From the NCBI GenBank assembly GCA_027604185.1, contig JADGKB010000214.1, positions 1 to 10,721 of the forward strand: a stretch of DNA of 10,721 nucleotides, given 5' to 3'. The stretch's first letter is position 1. The number at the start of each line of letters is the position of its first letter. Source of the stretch: Boothiomyces macroporosus (lineage: Eukaryota; Chytridiomycota; Chytridiomycetes; Rhizophydiales; Terramycetaceae). This document shows positions 480 to 10,721 of the stretch, in pieces. Below the pieces are notes generated by a model. The model was not told the DNA's origin, ran no database searches, and was given only the letters and a program-made list of their open reading frames with translations. A program made the translations under genes and the position numbers.

Positions 480-3400
480 ATGGCAAAAAAAGAAAAGGGG
501 CCGCCATCCGATATCCCTCCTATTAAATATACGGTAAGTTCAAGTTGATCCAGACTCTGTATACATATGCTACGGGAGGAGAGTTATTCGCAAACTTTTT
601 GGGCATTCTTTTCGCGGTAGTGTCAGGCGGGGCATTTCCTGCAACTACGTACAAATATTTTTAAATATAGAATCGTATTTGGAGACTTGATTGATACATT
701 TGGAAAATGGGAATTGCAACAAATGCCTGGGTATCCTCAGTTGATTACTGCTGAAGAATTCACGTCCAATGTTAGCTCTAGCACCCTTTACTTTCTTTAC
801 TTGGCTGGTAAACTTGAATTGATTTTAGTCTTGTCGTTTGTCTCTACTTACATCTCGATGGCTGCTTTCGTTTATACCGCGGAAGCCTCAACCAGTAGAA
901 TCAGAGACCAGTATTTGAAAGCTGTGTTAAGACAGAATGTTGCTTGGTTTGATAAAGTTGGTGCTGGTGAAGGTAAAATTGGTTAATCTCCAGTCGCTAC
1001 CAGAATCATCAGCGACACGCTATTGATTCAAGACGGCATCGGTGAAAAGGTGCCGTTAGCCTTTTCATCCGTTGCGACATTTATTGCTGGTTTTGTCATT
1101 GCCTTTATCAAATCATGGAAACTAACCCTTGTATTGATTTGTGTAGTGCCTCTTGTCGCGATCTCTGGTGCCGTGATGAACGTGATTAATGGTAAATTCC
1201 AAACAAGAATTCTAGCTTTGTATTCCCAATCTGGAAATATTGCTGAAGAAAGTATTGCTGCCATCAGAACTGTGACTGCGTTCAACTCCCAAAAGAAAGT
1301 AAGCAAACTCTATGATGAAAGTCTAGCAGGAGCAAGAAAGGAAGGAATCAAAAAATGTATCTCTACTGGTGTTGGTCTTGGATCTTTGTTCTTCTTTATT
1401 TACAATGCCTATGCCTTGGCGTTTTGGTATGGACATATTCTCTTACAAAATGGCGAAATTAAAGCTGGTTCAGTTGTAAACGTTTTCTTTGCGGTATTGA
1501 TTGGTGCTTTCTCTCTTGGTCAACTTGCCCCTGATCTCCAGGCATTTGCTTTTGGTATTGGTGCTGGTGCTAAAATCTTTGACACCATCAATAGAGTTCC
1601 TCCAATCGACCCTTATGATGAAGGAGGAGAAAGGATTAAACCAGAAGAGACTAAGGGCCGAATTGTTCTCAAAGACATTGATGTAAAGCAGTTTTAACGT
1701 TAGTTCACCTATCCGTCAAGACCTGACGTACCAATTTTGAAAAAATACAATCTAACAATTGAGCCTGGAACAACTGTTGCACTCGTTGGGCAATCTGGTA
1801 GCGGAAAGGTAATATTGGACTGAATTAAGAGTACAATTATTCAACTGCTTGAGAGATTCTACGATCCAGATGCTGGGGTTGTTGAATTAGATGGACGGCC
1901 TCTTAAATCAATCAATTTGAACTCTCTTCGTCAAGTCGTCGGACTTGTTTCCCAAGAACCAGTGCTTTTTGAAGGAACTGTTTTTGAAAATGTTGCTAAT
2001 GGTCTAGTCGGTACTCCCCATGAACATGCCAGTGATGATGAGAAAATGAAACTAGTTCAAGAGGCTTGTAAGCAAGCAAATGCACATGATTTCATTTTGA
2101 AGTTGCAAAACGGTTATAACACTCAAGTCGGAGAAAGAGGCATGCTTCTTTCAGGTGGTCAAAAACAGCGAGTTGCAATTGCCAGAGCTATCATCAAGAA
2201 TCCAAAGATTTTACTACTTGGTAATTTACTTTAACCCAAGATGAAGCAACTTCAGCTTTGGATACCACCTCCGAAAGGGTTGTGCAGGCTGCCTTGGACA
2301 ATGTCTCTAAATCTAGAACTACAATTACCATTGCGCACCGACTTAGCACAATCAAGAATGCTGACAAGATTGTTGTAATGGTTAGAGGTGAAATCATTGA
2401 AATGGGCAACCATGACACTTTGGTCAAGAATGGCGGACTGTACGCAAATTTAGTTAATGCACAAACACTGAAATCTGCAAACGACGCTGAAAAAGAAAAA
2501 GGACCTGAAATTGATCCAGATGAAATTCCACCTTCCCCCGTTGAGCCACCAAAGCGTGTGTCTGAGCCAATTGCCCCTGTAGTGGAGAGTTTGCATGATC
2601 TAGAAAAAATGGGAGATGATGTCAAACTATCCACATCATTTGTCATCAGGGAGATTTTCCGGTACAATATGCCAGAGTTAAAGTATACAATTCCAGGTCT
2701 AGTTGGTGCTGTTGGAAGTGGTTTAATTTGTAATCTATACTTGATCTAGATCCATTCTTTGCAATTTCCTTTGCTAGTATCATTGGGGTTTTCTCTGATA
2801 AAGGCAGCGATTTAGAGACGCAAGCCGATTTCTGGGCAATTATTTTTGTCATTATTTCTGTTGTCTACTTTATATTCACATTCTTGCAAAACGCTCTTTT
2901 TGGGTTTGCTTCTGAACTTCTGACAGAAAGACTCCGTAAATGGACTTTTGCTGCTATTCTCAGACAAGACATTGCCTTCTTTGATGACGAAAAAAATTCA
3001 ACTGGCGCACTAACTTCGAACTTGTCGTCTGACGCACAAAAAGTACAGGGTGCCTCTGGTGTTACTCTTGGAACAATTTTGCAGATTTTGGTCAACTTGA
3101 TTGGAAATATTACTGTTGCCCTTATCTATGGATGGAAGCTTGCTTTAGTTGCCACTGCAACTTTGCCAATATTGGTTGGTACTTCAATGTTTAGGATGAT
3201 GATCTTTACTTTCTTTGCAAACAAGAGCAAAGAGGCATACGAAAAGTCAGCTCAAGTTGCCTGTGAATCAGTTGCTGCTATTAAAACAGTTCAATCATTG
3301 ACCAGAGAAAAAACAGTCCACCAGAGATACAAAGATCAGTTAGTTGCTCCACTACGAGCCGGCTTGAAATCTGCAATTCTCAACACTCCATTCTACGCGT

Positions 3401-4438
3401 TCAGTAACTGTGCAAACTTTTTGATCAACGCGCTAGTTTTCTGGTACGGAGGACAACTGATTGCTTATGAAGGGTATACTATTCAACGCTTTTTCACTGT
3501 CTTTGTTGCAATCATCTTTGGCGCTCAAGGTGTCGGCCGTGTGTTTGCTTATGCACCAGGTATTTTGGTTTATAACATTAGATTTGACAAAAGCTAAAGA
3601 CTCTGGTGAAAACATTATTAAATTATTAAACAGAAGACCAAAAATCGATTCAGCGCAAGAAGGAGGAAAGATTGAAAATCCATCTGGTCATGTAAAACTA
3701 CAGAATGTAAAGTTCCACTATCCTCACCGAGCTGAAGTAAAAGTTTTAAAAGGACTTGATATTGAAGTTAAACCAGGTCAATTTGCAGCTTTGGTAGGGC
3801 CTAGCGGTTGTGGTAAGAGTACTACTATTGGTCTCTTGGAACGATTTTATGATCCAATTGGTGGCCAAGTTATTGTTGATGGACAGGACATTTCAAAACT
3901 AAATGTTGCTGCATACAGAAATATCATTGGTCTAGTATCTCAAGAACCAAACTTGTTTGACATGACAATCAAGGAAAACATTATGTTTGGATGCGATTTT
4001 ATTCCTACACAAGAAGAAATTGAAGAAGCTTGCAAATCGGCTAATATCCATGATTTTATCATGGGATTACCAGACAACTACAACACCAGAGTAGGTGCTA
4101 AAGGCGGACAAATGTCTGGCGGTCAAAAACAACGTATTGCGATTGCGAGAGCTCTTATCAAGAATCCAAAGATTCTGTTGCTTGATGAAGCTACTTCGGC
4201 GCTTGATGCAGAATCAGAAAAAGTCGTCCAAGAAGCTTTAGATTCCGCCGCAAAAGGAAGAACTACAATCTCCATTGCCCACAGACTGTCTACAATTCAG
4301 CATGCCGATGTAATTTTCGTATTGAAAGATGGGGTACTTGAAGAAAAAGGTACGCATTCCGAACTGTACAAGAAGGGGGGTGTGTACTATGAACTTGCTG
4401 TCCAACAAAATCTTTCAGTTTCAGACGATTCAAAATAA
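480..4438 (+). CDS. Full-size ABCB (MDR/P-glycoprotein-like) ABC exporter, nine exons, 1263 aa
   Basis: ATP-driven membrane exporter with the TMD1-NBD1-TMD2-NBD2 plan of P-glycoprotein, Pmd1 and Ste6; the substrate (drugs, lipids or a lipopeptide pheromone) cannot be told from sequence. Exons: 480-533, 554-648, 671-972, 994-1682, 1704-1808, 1830-2220, 2241-2729, 2750-3559, 3582-4438. The eight introns are 20-22 nt and the joined frame is open throughout. Hydrophobic segments sit near residues 30-50, 88-118, 172-212, 277-298 and 307-329 in TMD1, and 695-758, 818-852, 923-943 and 955-975 in TMD2. NBD1 has Walker A GQSGSGK ending at K415, signature LSGGQ 522-526 and Walker B with D546/E547. NBD2 has Walker A GPSGCGK ending at K1057, signature MSGGQ 1156-1160, Walker B D1180/E1181 and an AHRLST H-loop. 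An acidic, proline-rich linker (about 630-685) joins the halves. Length fits the family (about 1280 aa). The ATG at 480 is preceded in frame by TGA. Splice sites are inferred from homology, not transcripts. Confidence 0.95.
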
Positions 4439-4439
4439 A
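4434..4439 (+). terminator. AATAAA poly(A)-signal-like motif over the ABC stop codon
   Basis: AATAAA at 4434-4439 contains the TAA stop codon (4436-4438). A second AATAAA at 4454-4459 runs into the A of the next gene's ATG. With only 20 bp to the RAD30 start, one of these, or a signal inside the next gene, must direct 3' end formation. The motif is seen; its function is inferred. Confidence 0.35.
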
Positions 4440-4458
4440 TTATTGTTTACAACAATAA

Positions 4459-6028
4459 ATGTCCAGTTCGGACAAATCCATTTTTCCCTTTTTTGAAATG
4501 AAATCTTTGCAGACCAGAGCCATTATCCATTTGGATCTGGTAGATGTTTCTAATACAAGGATGCCTTTTATGCGCAAGTAGAGCAAGTTAGACTTGGGCT
4601 GGATGCGTCGGTTCCGTTGTGTGTACAACAATGGACCGCTGTAATAGCTGTGAACTATGCTGCAAGAAAATTTGGCATAAAGCGAAGTCACTCGGCAAAG
4701 GAATGCGTAGATTTATGTCCCGATGTCGTTCTCGTACATGTACCGACGATGAAGGAAGGTGATGTTACTCCAGTCCACAGGCAGTTATCGGCAAAGGATA
4801 AGCATACGCACAAAGTATCTTTACAGCCATATCAAGATGCGAGTTTGAAGATAATGAAGATTATTGAATCGCATTTTCCAGATTTTCAAAAGGCTTCTGT
4901 CGATGAAGCTTACATTGATGTGACTTTAAAAGTTGCAGAATTAATGGAAGAGTATGATCCGGACGTTGAACCGATTGTCGACTGGAGTGGGAGAGGAAAT
5001 ATGATTGGTGGAGAGGTATCGGTCACGAAAGGATGGGAGGACTTGCAACTGGCACTAGCAGCGGATATTAGTGCGCAGATTAGAGCAGAGATCTTTGATA
5101 CATTGGGATATACCTCAAGCACAGGAATCGCGCATAATAAAACCCTAGCAAAGTTGATATCTTCGGAAAATAAACCAAATAAACAGTCAATTTTAAGGGG
5201 AGAAATGGTTTCTGAGTACATGAAAGGAGTCCAGTTTTCAAAAATCAAAGGACTTGGAGGGAATTTTGGAGAGCTGGTAAATCAGCATTTTCCAGTTGAT
5301 AAAGCTACGGAACTTTGGAAATATGACATTGACGAGATGAAATCCAAACTGGGAAACGAAGATGGACAGTGGGTCTATGATATTTGCCGTGGGATATGCC
5401 ACGATCCAGGTATTTAATAATTAATCTAGTCGTCAAAGCGAAGCCTCCTGCATCGTATGGTGCGTTTAAGCTCTTTAACTGGTCTGTAAAAACGGTCCCT
5501 GAATTACACCGTTGGATTGGAATCCTATCAGTAGAGTGCCAAATCAAGCTGGATAACGATTTTCACGAATATAAGCGGTGGCCAAAAACACTAACTGTGC
5601 ATTACAGACAGCCAAACTTCTCAAAAACCATCAACTTTCCTCACAGAGATGACTTTAAAGATATCCAAAGTTTGGTACTGCCAATATTGCCGACTGATGT
5701 TGAGCTACAGATTAGGAATATTTCCATCACGTTAAACAGCCCAGTAAAGATTTCCACAAATACAATTAGTAAATGGCTTAAAGTGGAAGATAGCACAGTT
5801 AACGAAGATTCAGAATACCGTTGTACAGAGTGCCTAAAGATCATACAAAAAATCAATCAACAGGAACATCAAGACTACCATCTCGCATTAGAATTATCGA
5901 GAAGCTCTGATAAACCAGCAGTAGATACCAAACCAAAGCAGACCGACAAGCAGAAAAAGAATCAAAAGAAAGACCCGGTAAAAAAGAAGACGATTGCAGA
6001 GTTCTTTAAACCAAAATCTAGTCGTTAA
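4459..6028 (+). CDS. RAD30: DNA polymerase eta (Rad30/POLH-like Y-family translesion polymerase), three exons, 509 aa
   Basis: Y-family polymerase that copies past UV photoproducts such as cyclobutane dimers, recruited to stalled forks by PCNA and ubiquitin. Exons 4459-4539, 4560-5409 and 5430-6028, with two 20-nt introns. Motif I reads HLDLDAFYAQVEQ with metal-binding D26; the second site SVDEAYID supplies D142 and E143. IAVNYAARKFGIKR matches the Rad30 fingers region, GIAHNKTLAKLISSENKP (216-233) the thumb/palm motif, and KGLGGNFG (257-264) the hairpin. RWPKTLTV lies in the little-finger domain. The tail has a UBZ3 zinc finger (C442-x2-C445-x11-H457-x3-H461, the spacing of human Pol eta), a Lys-rich stretch, and TIAEFFKP near the end, a PCNA-binding motif like the TLESFFKP of human Pol eta. 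The start at 4459 is the first ATG; M14 (4498) is an alternative. It begins 20 bp after the ABC stop and ends 6 bp from the convergent methyltransferase. Confidence 0.95.
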
Positions 6029-6033
6029 ATATA

Positions 6034-6039
6034 TTTATT
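6034..6039 (-). terminator. AATAAA motif over the methyltransferase stop codon
   Basis: On the minus strand AATAAA covers 6039-6034 and contains the TAA stop (6037-6035). Any transcript ending past this point runs into the 3' end of RAD30, because the convergent stop codons are only 6 bp apart. Motif seen, function inferred. Confidence 0.35.
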
Positions 6040-7402
6040 GTGGTGCAACTTGCTCCTTTAATTGTTTAATTGCTTCATTCACCCTTTCAACCCCTTGAAT
6101 GATTTCCGCCGGAACATTACGGCGACATTTGTTGCAGATGGATCTTTTTCTACAGTTGAAACAGACGCGATCAAATTTACCAAGCATCATTTGCTCCAAT
6201 ATTATACGCTGCTGCCTCCACATGTCCACTTGAGCAGCTTTAATAGTTTGTCCATATTGCTTTAATATTTCGTTCACTGGTTCTGTTATAAGTATTGGGT
6301 TTAGCAGCTGTGCCTTTCGAAGTGTATCTTTTTGCGATAGTTTCTCTTGCGAAATGGATAGCTTTGACACTTCAAGCAAGTCATAGTCAATCTCGTAGGG
6401 GTTCTTTGGGGATCTAACAAGTGTTTCTAGACGGTCGATAATACCTTGATCTCGACTATACCCTTCGCAATATACCCAATATGTTTTGCGCATGGCAAAT
6501 TCCGTCATTGGTTTGTAGCTTTTCAACGATTTAAAGCACTTTGCCAATACTGTCATCAAATGTAAATCCACCAATCGTAAACCAAGATGCATGCGAACTA
6601 ATAGCGATCCATTTTCTTTGAGTGATTTTAGAGACACCAAAAATTGCGAAAAGTACAGCATGTTTTTCAATTCCAGTTCATCTTGAGCCTCTTTCTTTTG
6701 TTGTGATCCTGATGTGGTGATCCCAATGATGCACAGGTTAAACTGAGGTGTATTGAAATCTATCCCAGCATCTAAATTCTGTCTAGCGATATCAATAATA
6801 TCCCCAATAACCACATTATACCGATCCATATGATTGAAATTATCAGGGTAGACATTACCGCCTTTTTCAACGTTCAAATTGATCCCTACTCCTCTGCAAT
6901 TATCCAGCTTCAAGAGCAAGTAGCTCATTCCACCAGGTGCAAAGCCGATATCCAGGAACTGGAAATTTTCAATTCCTTTGGCTTTTTCAACATAATTCAG
7001 CCCAAGATCAATATCAACCGCATAGCGCAAGAACCTTTCGAATAGATCTCCAATCGCTTTGGTTTGTGAATGGTATCGTTCTGATTTGGTATCAACATTC
7101 TTTTTTTTGAACACTGCTGAGATGAATCGATTTTCTTGCGGTAGCCTTTTCACACGAAGCCATTTGAGAAATTCATCGTCATCCGGTTCGTTCAAGGTGT
7201 CGTTACTGCTGTTATGTAACTGTGATGAGGAATAATACTTTGCGATTTCCATTGTATCATTCATGTAAAAGAAGGCATGGTGCTTGCAAATGATTTCGTC
7301 TTCCTGCATCCATTCCCGACACCGATTCAAGCAAGGATATCCCAGAATATCCTCCACCGTCGTTGGTTTTATTCGCTTCTGTGGTGGAACATATTTCGAC
7401 AT
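6035..7402 (-). CDS. FtsJ-like SAM-dependent methyltransferase with C-terminal zinc-knuckle-like motif, 455 aa
   Basis: Probable S-adenosylmethionine-dependent methyltransferase of the Rossmann/FtsJ type; the substrate is unknown. Motif I reads FLDIGFAPGG (149-158), typical of FtsJ/RrmJ-like enzymes, followed by RGVGINL (motif II region), VIGDIID near 200 and a late ENGSLLVRMH strand (264-272). AMRKTYWVYCEGY (303-315) resembles the last FtsJ strand. The canonical FtsJ K-D-K-E tetrad is not clearly kept: the strand expected to carry the Asp reads CIIGITTSG, and the later Lys position appears to be Arg in LVRMH. The C-terminus has C414-x2-C417-x5-C423-x2-C426, a possible zinc-binding site, in a basic context, then a helical tail. 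The N-terminus (EDILGYPCLNRCREW) has two further Cys. ATG at 7402 is chosen; nine extra open codons upstream start only with GTG. Intronless. Resembles uncharacterised fungal FtsJ-like proteins rather than a named enzyme. Confidence 0.8.
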   Translation of the reverse strand: MSKYVPPQKRIKPTTVEDILGYPCLNRCREWMQEDEIICKHHAFFYMNDTMEIAKYYSSSQLHNSSNDTLNEPDDDEFLKWLRVKRLPQENRFISAVFKKKNVDTKSERYHSQTKAIGDLFERFLRYAVDIDLGLNYVEKAKGIENFQFLDIGFAPGGMSYLLLKLDNCRGVGINLNVEKGGNVYPDNFNHMDRYNVVIGDIIDIARQNLDAGIDFNTPQFNLCIIGITTSGSQQKKEAQDELELKNMLYFSQFLVSLKSLKENGSLLVRMHLGLRLVDLHLMTVLAKCFKSLKSYKPMTEFAMRKTYWVYCEGYSRDQGIIDRLETLVRSPKNPYEIDYDLLEVSKLSISQEKLSQKDTLRKAQLLNPILITEPVNEILKQYGQTIKAAQVDMWRQQRIILEQMMLGKFDRVCFNCRKRSICNKCRRNVPAEIIQGVERVNEAIKQLKEQVAPQ

Positions 7403-7455
7403 TTGAAAAAAAGCAAAAATAAAAACCACACCAAACTGCGTTTGCCCAGCCGCAT

Positions 7456-7461
7456 TTTATT
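7456..7461 (-). terminator. AATAAA motif overlapping the transcription factor stop codon
   Basis: On the minus strand the stop codon TAA (7462-7460) is followed directly by TAAAA, so AATAAA spans 7461-7456 and shares two bases with the stop. The next gene on the same strand starts 57 bp downstream (ATG at 7402), so the mRNA must be cleaved close by or run into that gene. Confidence 0.35.
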
Positions 7462-9085
7462 AGTAATCTTGGGAACTGTCGAAATGAGTGGGAGTTTGCT
7501 TTTCCAGAGTTTCATCCATGTTCCGGCGCTTGAAGATTCCGTAAAATATGATGGAATTAAGCAGAGTCATCTTTTCCATATACACCAGAATGTTGTGCAA
7601 TCGGCTGTATTTCTGGAAAGCGACGCCAAATATTTTGAGCGCATGCAAATGCGAATTGAACGCATTTTCGATCTGGTAATTGGGTATAAACTTTGTGCAA
7701 CAGAGGAGGAAAAAAGCACACGGAAACAGCGAGATTAGGGTATGTGGCCCCAAATAATCAAAGTTTGGGTTAGTTTTTATGATGATGTTCATCAAGTACG
7801 CATTCTGCATCGCAGCGTCAAGGGCTTCCTTGAAATATAGCTGACCTAGAAGCCTTTTTCCTTTAATGACATTCTTGACAAACTTGGGGAGAACGAGATT
7901 GACACGGTTTCCATTATAAACGATGGAAATGTAGATTGCAAGCCATGTTTTAGAATAATCGGTTTCCATTCGGTTTTTAATGTAAAACAAGTGCATTTTA
8001 AGGATTGGCTGGTACAACTGGTTCCACTCATACAGAGAAGCGGCGATTGACCCTTGGACGTAATTTGACTGCGGAGCATTGCTAAATTCAAGTTTTACAT
8101 ATCGCTGTATATGCAGCTGCATTCTACTTATTAGTATTCTATATGCTTGAAGAGAGTCGCAAGCTAGAGCCGGTGTAAACCACTCTTTGCTGGACATGAT
8201 TTCTATACCATAATAGTCTTTACCCGAAGCTGCTTCAAAGTAAAAGTTTTCCGACGGTAAGAACACATTGTGATCAGTATCATTGATCTTGCCAACTCCG
8301 ACTGAATTCGGTACGGAACAAAAGGCAGAAAACAATAACCACCATATGCGCCTAATGTTTTCTCTTTCATAGTCGAAATGAGATAGTTTTGCAATTCCTA
8401 CCTCTGTATTTAGACCAATAGTTTTAGAGATGTCGATCGCATGCTTCAAGTGAACCAGCATGGCATCCTTTTCGTCCAAATCTACCTTTAGACTAAAGTT
8501 ACTGAAAAGCACACTGCTGATGCAATAAAGAGTAAGAACACTTACATGATCACAGTTGCTTAGAAAATCGTAGGTTTGGGCTTGATACAGGTATAATTTG
8601 GCCAATTCTATTCTATCCGTTAGTTGATCTGGTATAACTGTTGGTTTAAGAAAGAGTGCCCCAGTTGCACATATTGCTAGTTTCAACGGCCAAAAAATAT
8701 CTGCTGTAGCTCTGAAAAAAGTGTCTTGTATTAACGACAAGGGAAACGAAAACCTTTTCAGCCCCAGTTCATATATATAATTGAGATTTGACTTTACGAG
8801 CTTTGCTGCCATATCAAAAGGGAAAACAACCCTTAAGGGTTGAACTGGTACTTTTTTATCTTTGTGGTTGTAAGACGCTACCAGATTCAACTCTAGTTCT
8901 TGAATACGGGCTTCAACAGTATTCAAAGTACTCTCCAACTGTTCTAATTCAGAGTAAGCACAAGGTATTTTCTTTGTCGAGCATAACCCACAAGGAGATT
9001 TTTTGTCACACTTGCGTTTCTAGATTAGAGTTATTAGTACCATTTTAACGCAGTAATCGCAAGAATATCTCATTTTTTTGCCCAT
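7460..9085 (-). CDS. Zn2Cys6 fungal-specific transcription factor, two exons, 534 aa
   Basis: Nuclear DNA-binding regulator of the Gal4-like class; target genes unknown. Exon 1 is 9085-9041 and exon 2 is 9019-7460, with a 21-nt intron (9040-9020) inside the zinc cluster. Splicing gives C9-x2-C12-x6-C19-x5-C25-x2-C28-x6-C35, a complete binuclear zinc cluster with the usual basic stretch KMKRKC. A short heptad-like region (about 39-60, ELEQLES then RIQELEL) fits a dimerisation coiled coil. The middle is helical and matches the fungal_trans middle homology region: AKLYLYQAQ near 155, then RRIWWLLFSAF (238-248) and GKINDTDHNVFLP (258-270), the common RR.WW...D.D..LP pattern. The C-terminal part is hydrophobic and unassigned. 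ATG at 9085 is the first in frame near the cluster; M5 is an alternative. A model starting in exon 2 would lose the first two zinc-binding cysteines, so the tiny intron decides the call. Confidence 0.9.
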
Positions 9086-10083: not shown

Positions 10084-10088
10084 TTATT
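10083..10088 (-). terminator. AATAAA motif over the SPF30-like stop codon
   Basis: On the minus strand AATAAA spans 10088-10083 and contains the TAA stop (10086-10084), within an A-rich run. Same arrangement as at the ABC and methyltransferase genes. Motif seen, function inferred. Confidence 0.35.
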
Positions 10089-10620
10089 TCCTTTTCTTTT
10101 GCTTTTCAAGAAACGCTTTCCACTTTTCTTGCTTTTCAGTCTGCTCTACATCATCCTTTCTCTTCTTTTTCTTTTTCTGCACTTTTTGTATTTTCGCATT
10201 TGGTTTTTCCTTGATATCTCCCACCACGATGTCTTTGGACGAAAGCAGTGTAGGATTCTTGCCTTCTTTTCCTTCTTTAACCAGATGCTTTTCAATTTCT
10301 ACTATCGTGTCATAGCCAGTGAATATTAACTCGTAGTGTGTTTCTGATACACCCACAATGAGTGCTTCATAGTAATTTGAATCAGAGTAACGCGCTAGAA
10401 TGGTTTCTCCGATTTCGTATTCCTTTAGTGGTTTCTTTACAATCTTTTTTTGTTGTTCTTTTTGTACAGGCTCTTCTTTTTTAGTTTCAATCGATCGATA
10501 TAAATCTATTAATTCTGTTAATTCGCTCTTTAATTTCTCTAGTTTTTCATTTCCAGGGTCTTTTTGTAGTGCATCCTCCACTTGGGAAAGCTGAAATTCG
10601 TAATTCTCCAATTCTGCCAT
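10084..10620 (-). CDS. SPF30: SPF30/SMNDC1-like Tudor-domain splicing factor, 178 aa
   Basis: Nuclear pre-mRNA splicing factor of the SMN-related SPF30 family, which in human cells helps join the tri-snRNP to the prespliceosome and binds symmetrically dimethylated arginine on Sm proteins. The N-terminus (ENYEFQLSQVEDALQKDPGN, then KLKSELTELIDLY) matches the family's leading helical region. A Tudor domain covers about 66-115: GETILARYSDSNYYEALI, then YELIFTGYDTIVEI. Likely aromatic-cage residues are Y77, Y84, F100 and Y103; the first is Trp in the human protein. A Lys-rich stretch (about 145-155) and EKWKAFLEKQKKRK end the protein, like the basic, W-containing tail of the family. At 178 aa it is shorter than human SPF30 (238 aa), mainly at the C-terminus. 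Intronless. ATG at 10620 is the natural start. The family is also related to SMN itself, but the N-terminal helices favour SPF30. Confidence 0.88.
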   Translation of the reverse strand: MAELENYEFQLSQVEDALQKDPGNEKLEKLKSELTELIDLYRSIETKKEEPVQKEQQKKIVKKPLKEYEIGETILARYSDSNYYEALIVGVSETHYELIFTGYDTIVEIEKHLVKEGKEGKNPTLLSSKDIVVGDIKEKPNAKIQKVQKKKKKRKDDVEQTEKQEKWKAFLEKQKKRK

Positions 10621-10680
10621 TAGATTTTTTTCAAAGAATTCACGAGTGGCTTTGACTAAAGTTATTCCCAGTCTGGATGA

Positions 10681-10721
10681 GAGTAATTCTGGATGAGAGT
10701 GACAAGAGTAATTCTGGATGA
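10681..10721. repeat. 16-bp direct repeat upstream of the SPF30-like gene
   Basis: GAGTAATTCTGGATGA occurs at 10681-10696 and again at 10706-10721, 25 bp apart; its 3' half, TCTGGATGA, occurs a third time at 10672-10680. The window ends exactly at the last copy, so the array may go on. It lies 50-100 bp upstream of the SPF30-like ATG, in its promoter or 5' UTR, or is the edge of a minisatellite. Confidence 0.75.

Follow-up and report, generated by a model that had tools for sequence, protein, structure and literature searches.

Very short introns have been described in several eukaryotic groups. According to the excerpts of the sources cited here, introns measure 18 to 21 nucleotides (nt) in chlorarachniophyte nucleomorphs (PMC10245619), 15 to 16 nt in the heterotrich ciliate Stentor (PMC10245619, PMC9505925), and 16 to 17 nt in mikrocytids, where M. 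mackini has only 224 introns and the reduced spliceosome comprises 17 to 19 proteins, with U2, U4, and U6 found (PMC10245619). The introns of Paramecium bursaria have a median length of 24 nt and range from 15 to 100 nt (PMC12862383). In the fungus Cryptococcus neoformans, introns average 56 nt, "ultra-short" refers to those below 60 nt, and a bin of 20 to 40 nt exists (PMC11913375). Here, we describe introns of 20 to 22 nt in three genes of the chytrid Boothiomyces macroporosus (Chytridiomycota, Rhizophydiales, Terramycetaceae). The analyzed window is the whole 10,721-nt contig JADGKB010000214.1 (C214) from a 216-contig assembly totalling 15,203,306 bases. The introns very probably represent U2-type introns of ordinary chemistry that have been shrunk throughout the genome to about the smallest size able to hold a GTAAWT donor, a YTRAY branch site, and an HAG acceptor.

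With a narrow genome-wide range within approximately 15 to 25 nt, B. macroporosus falls into the ultra-short class. As far as the cited excerpts go, it resembles the nucleomorphs in near-equal intron length, an equally narrow range, and a large number of introns; however, a nucleomorph is the relic nucleus of an endosymbiont with an extremely reduced genome, whereas B. macroporosus has an ordinary 15.2-Mb fungal genome. Stentor shares tiny, uniform introns, the presence of small nuclear RNAs (snRNAs), and a tiny lariat, but is a ciliate with still shorter introns, and the excerpts on it mention no concatenated introns; its branching factors Yju2, Cwc25, and Isy1 are reported to be divergent (PMC9505925). 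Mikrocytids show a comparably narrow class at the lower size limit but are obligate parasites. Paramecium is free-living with short introns genome-wide, as is the case here, but is a ciliate with a wider length range, and C. neoformans is a fungus that possesses some introns of 20 to 40 nt within a broad distribution centered far above 22 nt. In a literature search with subscription papers mostly outside its coverage, no report that addresses intron lengths of Boothiomyces or Terramyces was found.

The initial annotation, made from the window sequence, had listed eleven introns, all starting with GTA and ending with AG. Each of these intervals was recovered with identical coordinates and a length of 20 to 22 nt, and their removal leaves three open reading frames (480 to 4438, 4498 to 6028, and, on the minus strand, 9085 to 7460) that encode homologs of known proteins. 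The first gene (480 to 4438, plus strand) encodes a full-size ABCB (P-glycoprotein-type) transporter, whose 1,256-residue product, obtained after removal of nine introns, matches P-glycoprotein-type PDB chains across residues 6 to 1254. Eight of these introns had been listed, i.e., 534 to 553 (20 nt), 649 to 670 (22 nt), 973 to 993 (21 nt), 1683 to 1703 (21 nt), 1809 to 1829 (21 nt, splitting the Walker A region as GSGK|ST), 2221 to 2240 (20 nt, removal of which restores a protein stretch of 11 letters), 2730 to 2749 (20 nt), and 3560 to 3581 (22 nt). All eight junctions, including that of the first intron, lie in gap-free blocks of the alignment with two relatives, P0123 and P0124 (the latter from Globomyces pollinis-pini), and no gap comes closer to them than 11 residues. 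A further relative, P0122 from Boothiomyces sp. JEL0866, starts at residue 113 of the B. macroporosus transporter and covers six of the eight. RAD30, encoding DNA polymerase eta (4498 to 6028, plus strand), contains two 20-nt introns at 4540 to 4559 and 5410 to 5429, and its spliced product matches P0001, deposited for B. macroporosus as "DNA-directed DNA polymerase eta rad30," with 100% identity over 496 residues. In the gene for a Zn2Cys6 transcription factor (7460 to 9085, minus strand), a 21-nt intron at 9020 to 9040 interrupts the Zn2Cys6 cluster, and its removal restores the domain (Zn_clus, 29.8 bits; Pfam cut-off, 21). A second, in-frame segment of 21 nt in this gene (8482 to 8502, minus strand) is a candidate only, the Fungal_trans score being 24.5 bits when it is kept and 24.3 bits when it is removed. 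Scanning the plus strand of the transporter and RAD30 genes by motif alone (score of at least 2) detected nine of the ten listed introns and one additional segment, at 808 to 828, but nothing more; the intron at 1809 to 1829 escaped with a score of 0.6.

The additional segment raises the total of eleven introns to at least twelve. It is a 21-nt sequence, GTAAACTTGAATTGATTTTAG, with a TTGAT branch site whose A is at position 15 and is followed by 6 nt. As it is in frame and contains no stop codon, it was invisible to the initial annotation on the basis of the frame. If translated, it adds seven residues, GKLELIL, that are present in neither P0123 nor P0124. Without the segment (808 to 828, plus strand), the Pfam match to ABC_membrane rose from 208.4 to 217.2 bits, and the N-terminal part of the transporter reached a best PDB score of 333.2 bits, compared with 315.8 bits when the segment was kept. 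The deposited B. macroporosus transporter, P0121, retains GKLELIL, i.e., it translates this intron. P0121 also lacks the first 67 residues of the protein and, at the 1809 site, the eight residues STIIQLLE directly following the GK of Walker A, which are present in P0122 and P0124; it agrees with five of the eight listed transporter introns, among them those at 973 and 1683. The entry is labelled "GTPase-activating protein." Gene predictions for Boothiomyces are therefore likely to be wrong at many sites, as exemplified by a deposited transporter that includes an intron and drops part of its Walker A region.

Exactly at the position where 5410 to 5429 is removed in B. macroporosus, the deposited RAD30 proteins of two relatives, Boothiomyces sp. 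JEL0866 and Terramyces sp. JEL0728, carry seven extra residues, GILILNI and GNIQLIL, respectively, and each heptapeptide can be back-translated into a 21-nt GT...YTNAY...AG intron. Judged from this reverse reading of the proteins, the inserts would be 21-nt introns retained by the gene predictor, and they point to ultra-short introns as a trait of the family. The matching segments also bear on the idea that the interruptions were created by errors of assembly or sequencing. With a length of 10.7 kb, the contig is short, and the 216-contig assembly contains some large repeated stretches, yet errors would produce neither a matching retained segment in relatives nor the constant spacing of donor, branch, and acceptor motifs across many genes; we regard the probability of this explanation as negligible.

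The genome-wide length distribution was determined in a 200-kb sample composed of bases 20,001 to 30,000 of contigs C1 to C20, i.e., the largest contigs and not a random selection. Matches to GTA...[CT]T[AG]A[CT]...AG were grouped according to their full length, and the same count on the reversed sequence served as the control. An excess was evident at 19 nt (73 versus 30), 20 nt (100 versus 37), and 21 nt (61 versus 36), and no second peak appeared between 22 and 80 nt in this sample relative to the reversed control. The initial annotation had named a genome-wide peak well above 25 nt as the observation that would make the window atypical; no such peak was present up to 80 nt. With a stricter motif score, the observed and control counts were 26 and 5 at 19 nt, 23 and 0 at 20 nt, 19 and 1 at 21 nt, and 6 and 1 at 22 nt. 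Gene models in which all intron lengths from 12 to 150 nt were equally weighted contained 133 introns, 95 of which were 18 to 23 nt long. Models allowing introns of 15 to 26 nt yielded 203 introns in 99 gene models, 70 of them intron-bearing; 190 of the 203 measured 19 to 22 nt (52 of 19, 82 of 20, 39 of 21, and 17 of 22 nt). The 52 introns of 19 nt thus belong to the genome-wide class, although none occurs in the window. A gene model with neither a length nor a motif term was discarded as too weak, several window introns being skipped or misplaced.

Searches of the whole genome gave a consistent picture. The pattern GTAN7TTTAACNNTAG had 81 matches, compared with 7 for the reversed pattern, and the pattern GTAAN{5,35}TTTAACNNTAG, in which the spacing is free between total lengths of 20 and 50 nt, had 147 matches versus 90 in the control. 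Among 100 of these 147 matches that were listed, 79 measured 20 to 23 nt and the other 21 were scattered from 26 to 50 nt, with 0 to 3 per length above 23 nt. The modelled introns were also examined at the protein level, for which 8 models were taken from the 33 in the sample that have at least three introns (one of the submitted proteins was shortened to 347 residues). Of 35 introns, 22 were located inside the displayed Pfam matches that passed the cut-off, namely, DUF4436, ankyrin, MDM10/porin, kinase, Brix, PAS, WD40-type, and bestrophin domains. No two of the 19- to 22-nt introns in the 200-kb sample are identical, unlike introner elements, which occur as near-identical copies at unrelated sites.

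The 12 introns of the window and the 203 modelled ones combine GT-AG ends with an upstream branch motif, as is typical of the U2 type; note that the GT and AG ends of the modelled set were imposed by the gene model. The modelled introns follow a GTAAWT donor consensus, with GTA in 92% followed by A in 60%, T at +5 in 43%, and T at +6 in 61%, so that most of them no longer have the customary G at +5. The branch site is YTRAY-like, and the acceptor, HAG, is TAG in 68%, CAG in 20%, and AAG in 11% of cases. The branch A is located at position 14 to 16 in 191 of the 203 introns and is followed by 4 to 7 nt in 201 and by 5 or 6 nt in 178 (4 to 8 nt were permitted). Only 3 or 4 nt thus separate the branch A from the AG, a distance that cannot accommodate a polypyrimidine tract. 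The position of the branch A (14 or 15) and the length of the tail (5 or 6) are independent of each other (chi-square test, P = 0.76). The earlier proposal of a narrow spliceosomal class of about 20 nt, with the branch A 6 to 8 nt from the 3' end when counted inclusively, is therefore borne out both in the window and across the genome. Minor (U12-type) introns are marked by an RTATCCTT donor and a TTCCTTAAC branch site. The modelled set, with its GTAAWT donor and YTRAY branch, does not show these motifs; the U12 snRNA itself was not searched for.

A genome search identified two genes for U2 (142.2 and 135.4 bits), one for U6 (62.2 bits), and one candidate for U1, which starts with AUACUUACCUG. 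The U2 genes contain GUGUAGUA, the region also being given as GUGUAGUAUCUG, and the U6 gene contains ACAGAGA. The pairing regions of U1, U2, and U6 are canonical and complementary to the intron motifs. The two U2 loci (L009 and L010) are alike in the branch-pairing region and differ in their 3' parts. An SF1-HH domain is encoded (114.6 bits), and a U2AF65-like gene at C2:122543-123575 gave a piecewise match with internal stops, as introns would cause. A search for RED_N, representing a human factor for short introns, returned no match, a search outcome that does not show absence. These data bear on removal by a route other than the spliceosome, i.e., DNA elimination, splicing of the tRNA type, or ribosomal bypass, which could be considered because introns of fungi are usually far longer than 20 nt. 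The motifs fit canonical U1, U2, and U6, genes for splicing factors are present, and, as the segments are contained in the assembled genome, elimination would have to be stage-specific, making such a route highly improbable. Ribosome-based explanations, like assembly errors, were rejected in view of the genome-wide motif spacing.

Several observations weigh against ordinary U2-type introns of minimal size. The gene models were applied to the very sample on which their motif score had been trained, with the 11 window introns as the seed, and the 203-intron models were restricted to 15 to 26 nt with a tail of 4 to 8 nt after the branch A. No excess was seen for 22 nt in the 200-kb count (31 versus 41 in the control). 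Other length windows of 12 nt, when forced on the model, still produced 40 to 51 "introns" each, although overlap with a short intron, with the same remainder on division by three, was seen for 11 of the 13 placed at 38 nt and for 10 of the 12 placed at 44 nt. Regarding the machinery, the U1 candidate scored 68.8 bits, slightly below the cut-off of 69.5, and the U2AF65-like pieces reached 230.7 bits, under a cut-off of 310.3. The models with flat length weighting proposed 38 of 133 introns that are longer, at 25 to 149 nt, and a model permitting up to 300 nt gave 42 long candidates beside 205 short ones. The last two results would be expected if the window were atypical, most introns having the normal fungal size and the tiny ones being limited to these genes. 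However, the longer proposals share no common length (one of them, 57 nt long, represents an array of three units described below), the counts show no peak from 23 to 80 nt, introns of 31 to 80 nt with a motif score of at least 5 were not in excess in the 200-kb sample (59 versus 111 in the control), and the listed whole-genome matches beyond 23 nt are sparse. An atypical window is thus very unlikely, and we retain the interpretation of a genome-wide class of minimal U2-type introns.

From the motifs and their spacing, we infer that the segments are spliced, the simplest reading being that this is probably the work of a normal spliceosome at its geometric limit, with intron length set by two rulers. 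The first ruler would span 14 to 15 nt, sometimes 16, from the donor G to the branch A, and the second would span the 5 to 6 nt after the A; independent variation of the two would result in lengths of 19 to 22 nt. U1 would pair with positions +1 to +6 and U2 with approximately positions 9 to 15, so that the two sites would abut without overlapping. Recognition might proceed by short-range intron definition, with U1/U6 and U2 following closely on one another, while SF1/U2 pairing might substitute for recognition of the tract. If so, B. macroporosus could reveal the minimum size of an intron that the normal splicing machinery is able to remove. This limit is usually approached in lineages that are hard to grow or have reduced genomes; here, it is displayed in a 15.2-Mb fungus with canonical snRNAs, SF1/U2AF genes, and thousands of introns, the 203 introns per 200 kb extrapolating to about 15,000 genome-wide. 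Two independent rulers with a slack of 1 nt each would provide a geometric criterion against which structures of the spliceosome could be tested precisely.

The 57-nt intron mentioned above consists of three successive 19-nt introns and was the first example of a concatenated array, in which complete units of 19 to 22 nt abut as AG|GTA with an exon length of zero. Across the genome, three two-unit AG|GTA patterns gave 13, 8, and 4 matches (25 in total), compared with 0 in each control; after merging of overlaps and identical duplicated copies, these correspond to 9, 6, and 4, i.e., 19 distinct arrays, in C1, C6, C8, C9, C18, C20, C24, C30, C41, C47, C49, C50, C60, C90, C92, and C145 (loci L032 to L044). 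When the exon between the TTAAY tail of one intron and a second intron was left free from 0 to 30 nt, 40 matches were obtained versus 8 in the control; among the 37 distinct strings, length 0 occurred in 8 and every other length in at most 3. In the 200-kb models, 3 of 133 adjacent intron pairs were separated by a zero-length exon. No report of concatenated ultra-short introns was found in the literature search, with the same limited coverage of subscription papers. Juxtaposed AG|GT sites also define the ratchet points of recursive splicing in Drosophila, which, in the excerpt cited, lie within long introns (PMC8605326); both systems join acceptor and donor without an exon, but the arrays repeat every 19 to 22 nt and are built of complete mini-introns. 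Fungal stwintrons are described in the excerpts as two U2 introns at one place that require consecutive reactions (PMC7138796, PMC9024468). There, the internal intron lies within a splicing element of the external one, whereas no such splitting was seen in the arrays, whose units are complete and abut exactly.

Seven products of array-bearing genes were analyzed with Pfam after removal of the whole arrays; L041, which lacks a gene model, was outside this test. Domains span the array sites in five of the seven, covering six arrays: Proteasome_A_N (L036), OGG_N, ING, BRE (L034, with two triple arrays), and Vac_ImportDeg. In the other two, a methyltransferase and a HEAT-repeat protein, which presumably resembles MOT1, the site lies outside the displayed matches. 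For OGG1 (L038), the gene model had taken a single unit, and the whole-array version, joined by hand from the open frame, gave OGG_N. The longest array backed by homology is located in the ING gene (L044) and comprises five units in 101 nt. At L040 (C24, near 126788 to 126827, minus strand), eight abutting GT..AG units lie within a likely gene, and the chain is in part a 42-base pair tandem repeat (2.5 copies) of two intron-like halves; because it includes weak units, this putative array is not counted as proven past its first two.

Alternatively, a whole array might be excised at once as one intron of 38 to 101 nt, its first GT serving as the donor and its last AG as the acceptor. The final messenger RNA would be the same as after unit-by-unit removal, some inner units of the C24 array have poor donors (score of -5.4), as if not under selection, and such sizes are normal for introns of the S. 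pombe and Cryptococcus types (compare the C. neoformans average in the excerpt of PMC11913375). Yet single introns of 38 to 101 nt were not detected as a class of their own, and the inner units of arrays other than that in C24 are mostly complete, also beyond those demanded by the search pattern (units 1 and 5 of L044 and the second array of L034). One-step removal is a substantial possibility to which we assign somewhat less than an even chance. Since no separate class of longer single introns was seen, we favor, and infer from the sequences, excision one unit at a time. It is tentatively suggested, with confidence just short of even, that the spliceosome is locked to one geometry (the A at 14 to 16, then 5 to 6 nt) and cannot readily use longer spans, that extra intronic DNA survives only as zero-exon concatemers of 19- to 22-nt units, and that some arrays grow by tandem duplication of whole introns.

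Traces of such duplication were found in part of the arrays. Two adjacent units in C8 are identical, and adjacent units were more alike than random introns in two pairs of L044 and one pair of C30. Overall, similarity reached P < 0.05 in 5 of the 30 pairs tested (the four arrays from the third AG|GTA pattern were not among them), so that duplication accounts for some arrays and was rejected as the origin of all of them; repeated insertion at the TAG|G junction of an existing intron may be an alternative origin. If this scheme is correct, a single genome would display, in its concatenated introns, both the splicing of individual units and the gain of introns through duplication.

The remainder of the window contains an intronless gene for an FtsJ-type methyltransferase between RAD30 and the transcription factor gene (6035 to 7402, minus strand; 41.6 bits) and, at 10084 to 10620 on the minus strand, a gene for a protein with a weak Tudor match. 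The latter had been annotated as a full-size SPF30-like factor, a link that is not supported, given that Tudor_2 scored 21.5 bits against a cut-off of 31.4 and that the best PDB match was a Tudor domain of the PHF20 type (E value, 0.0038). Positions 1 to 180 encode the C terminus of another ABC transporter, of the same type as that at 480 to 4438 and located upstream of it; the gene is interrupted by the contig end, and the final residues of the protein are similar to those of P0123. In C2, C10, C18, and C20, identical matches recur 42.6, 53.7, 47.6, and 45.1 kb away on the same contig, representing either large repeats or both haplotypes in series. Finally, the other end of the window (10670 to 10721) carries a short direct repeat (GAGTAATTCTGGATGAGAGT...), a possible break point of the assembly.

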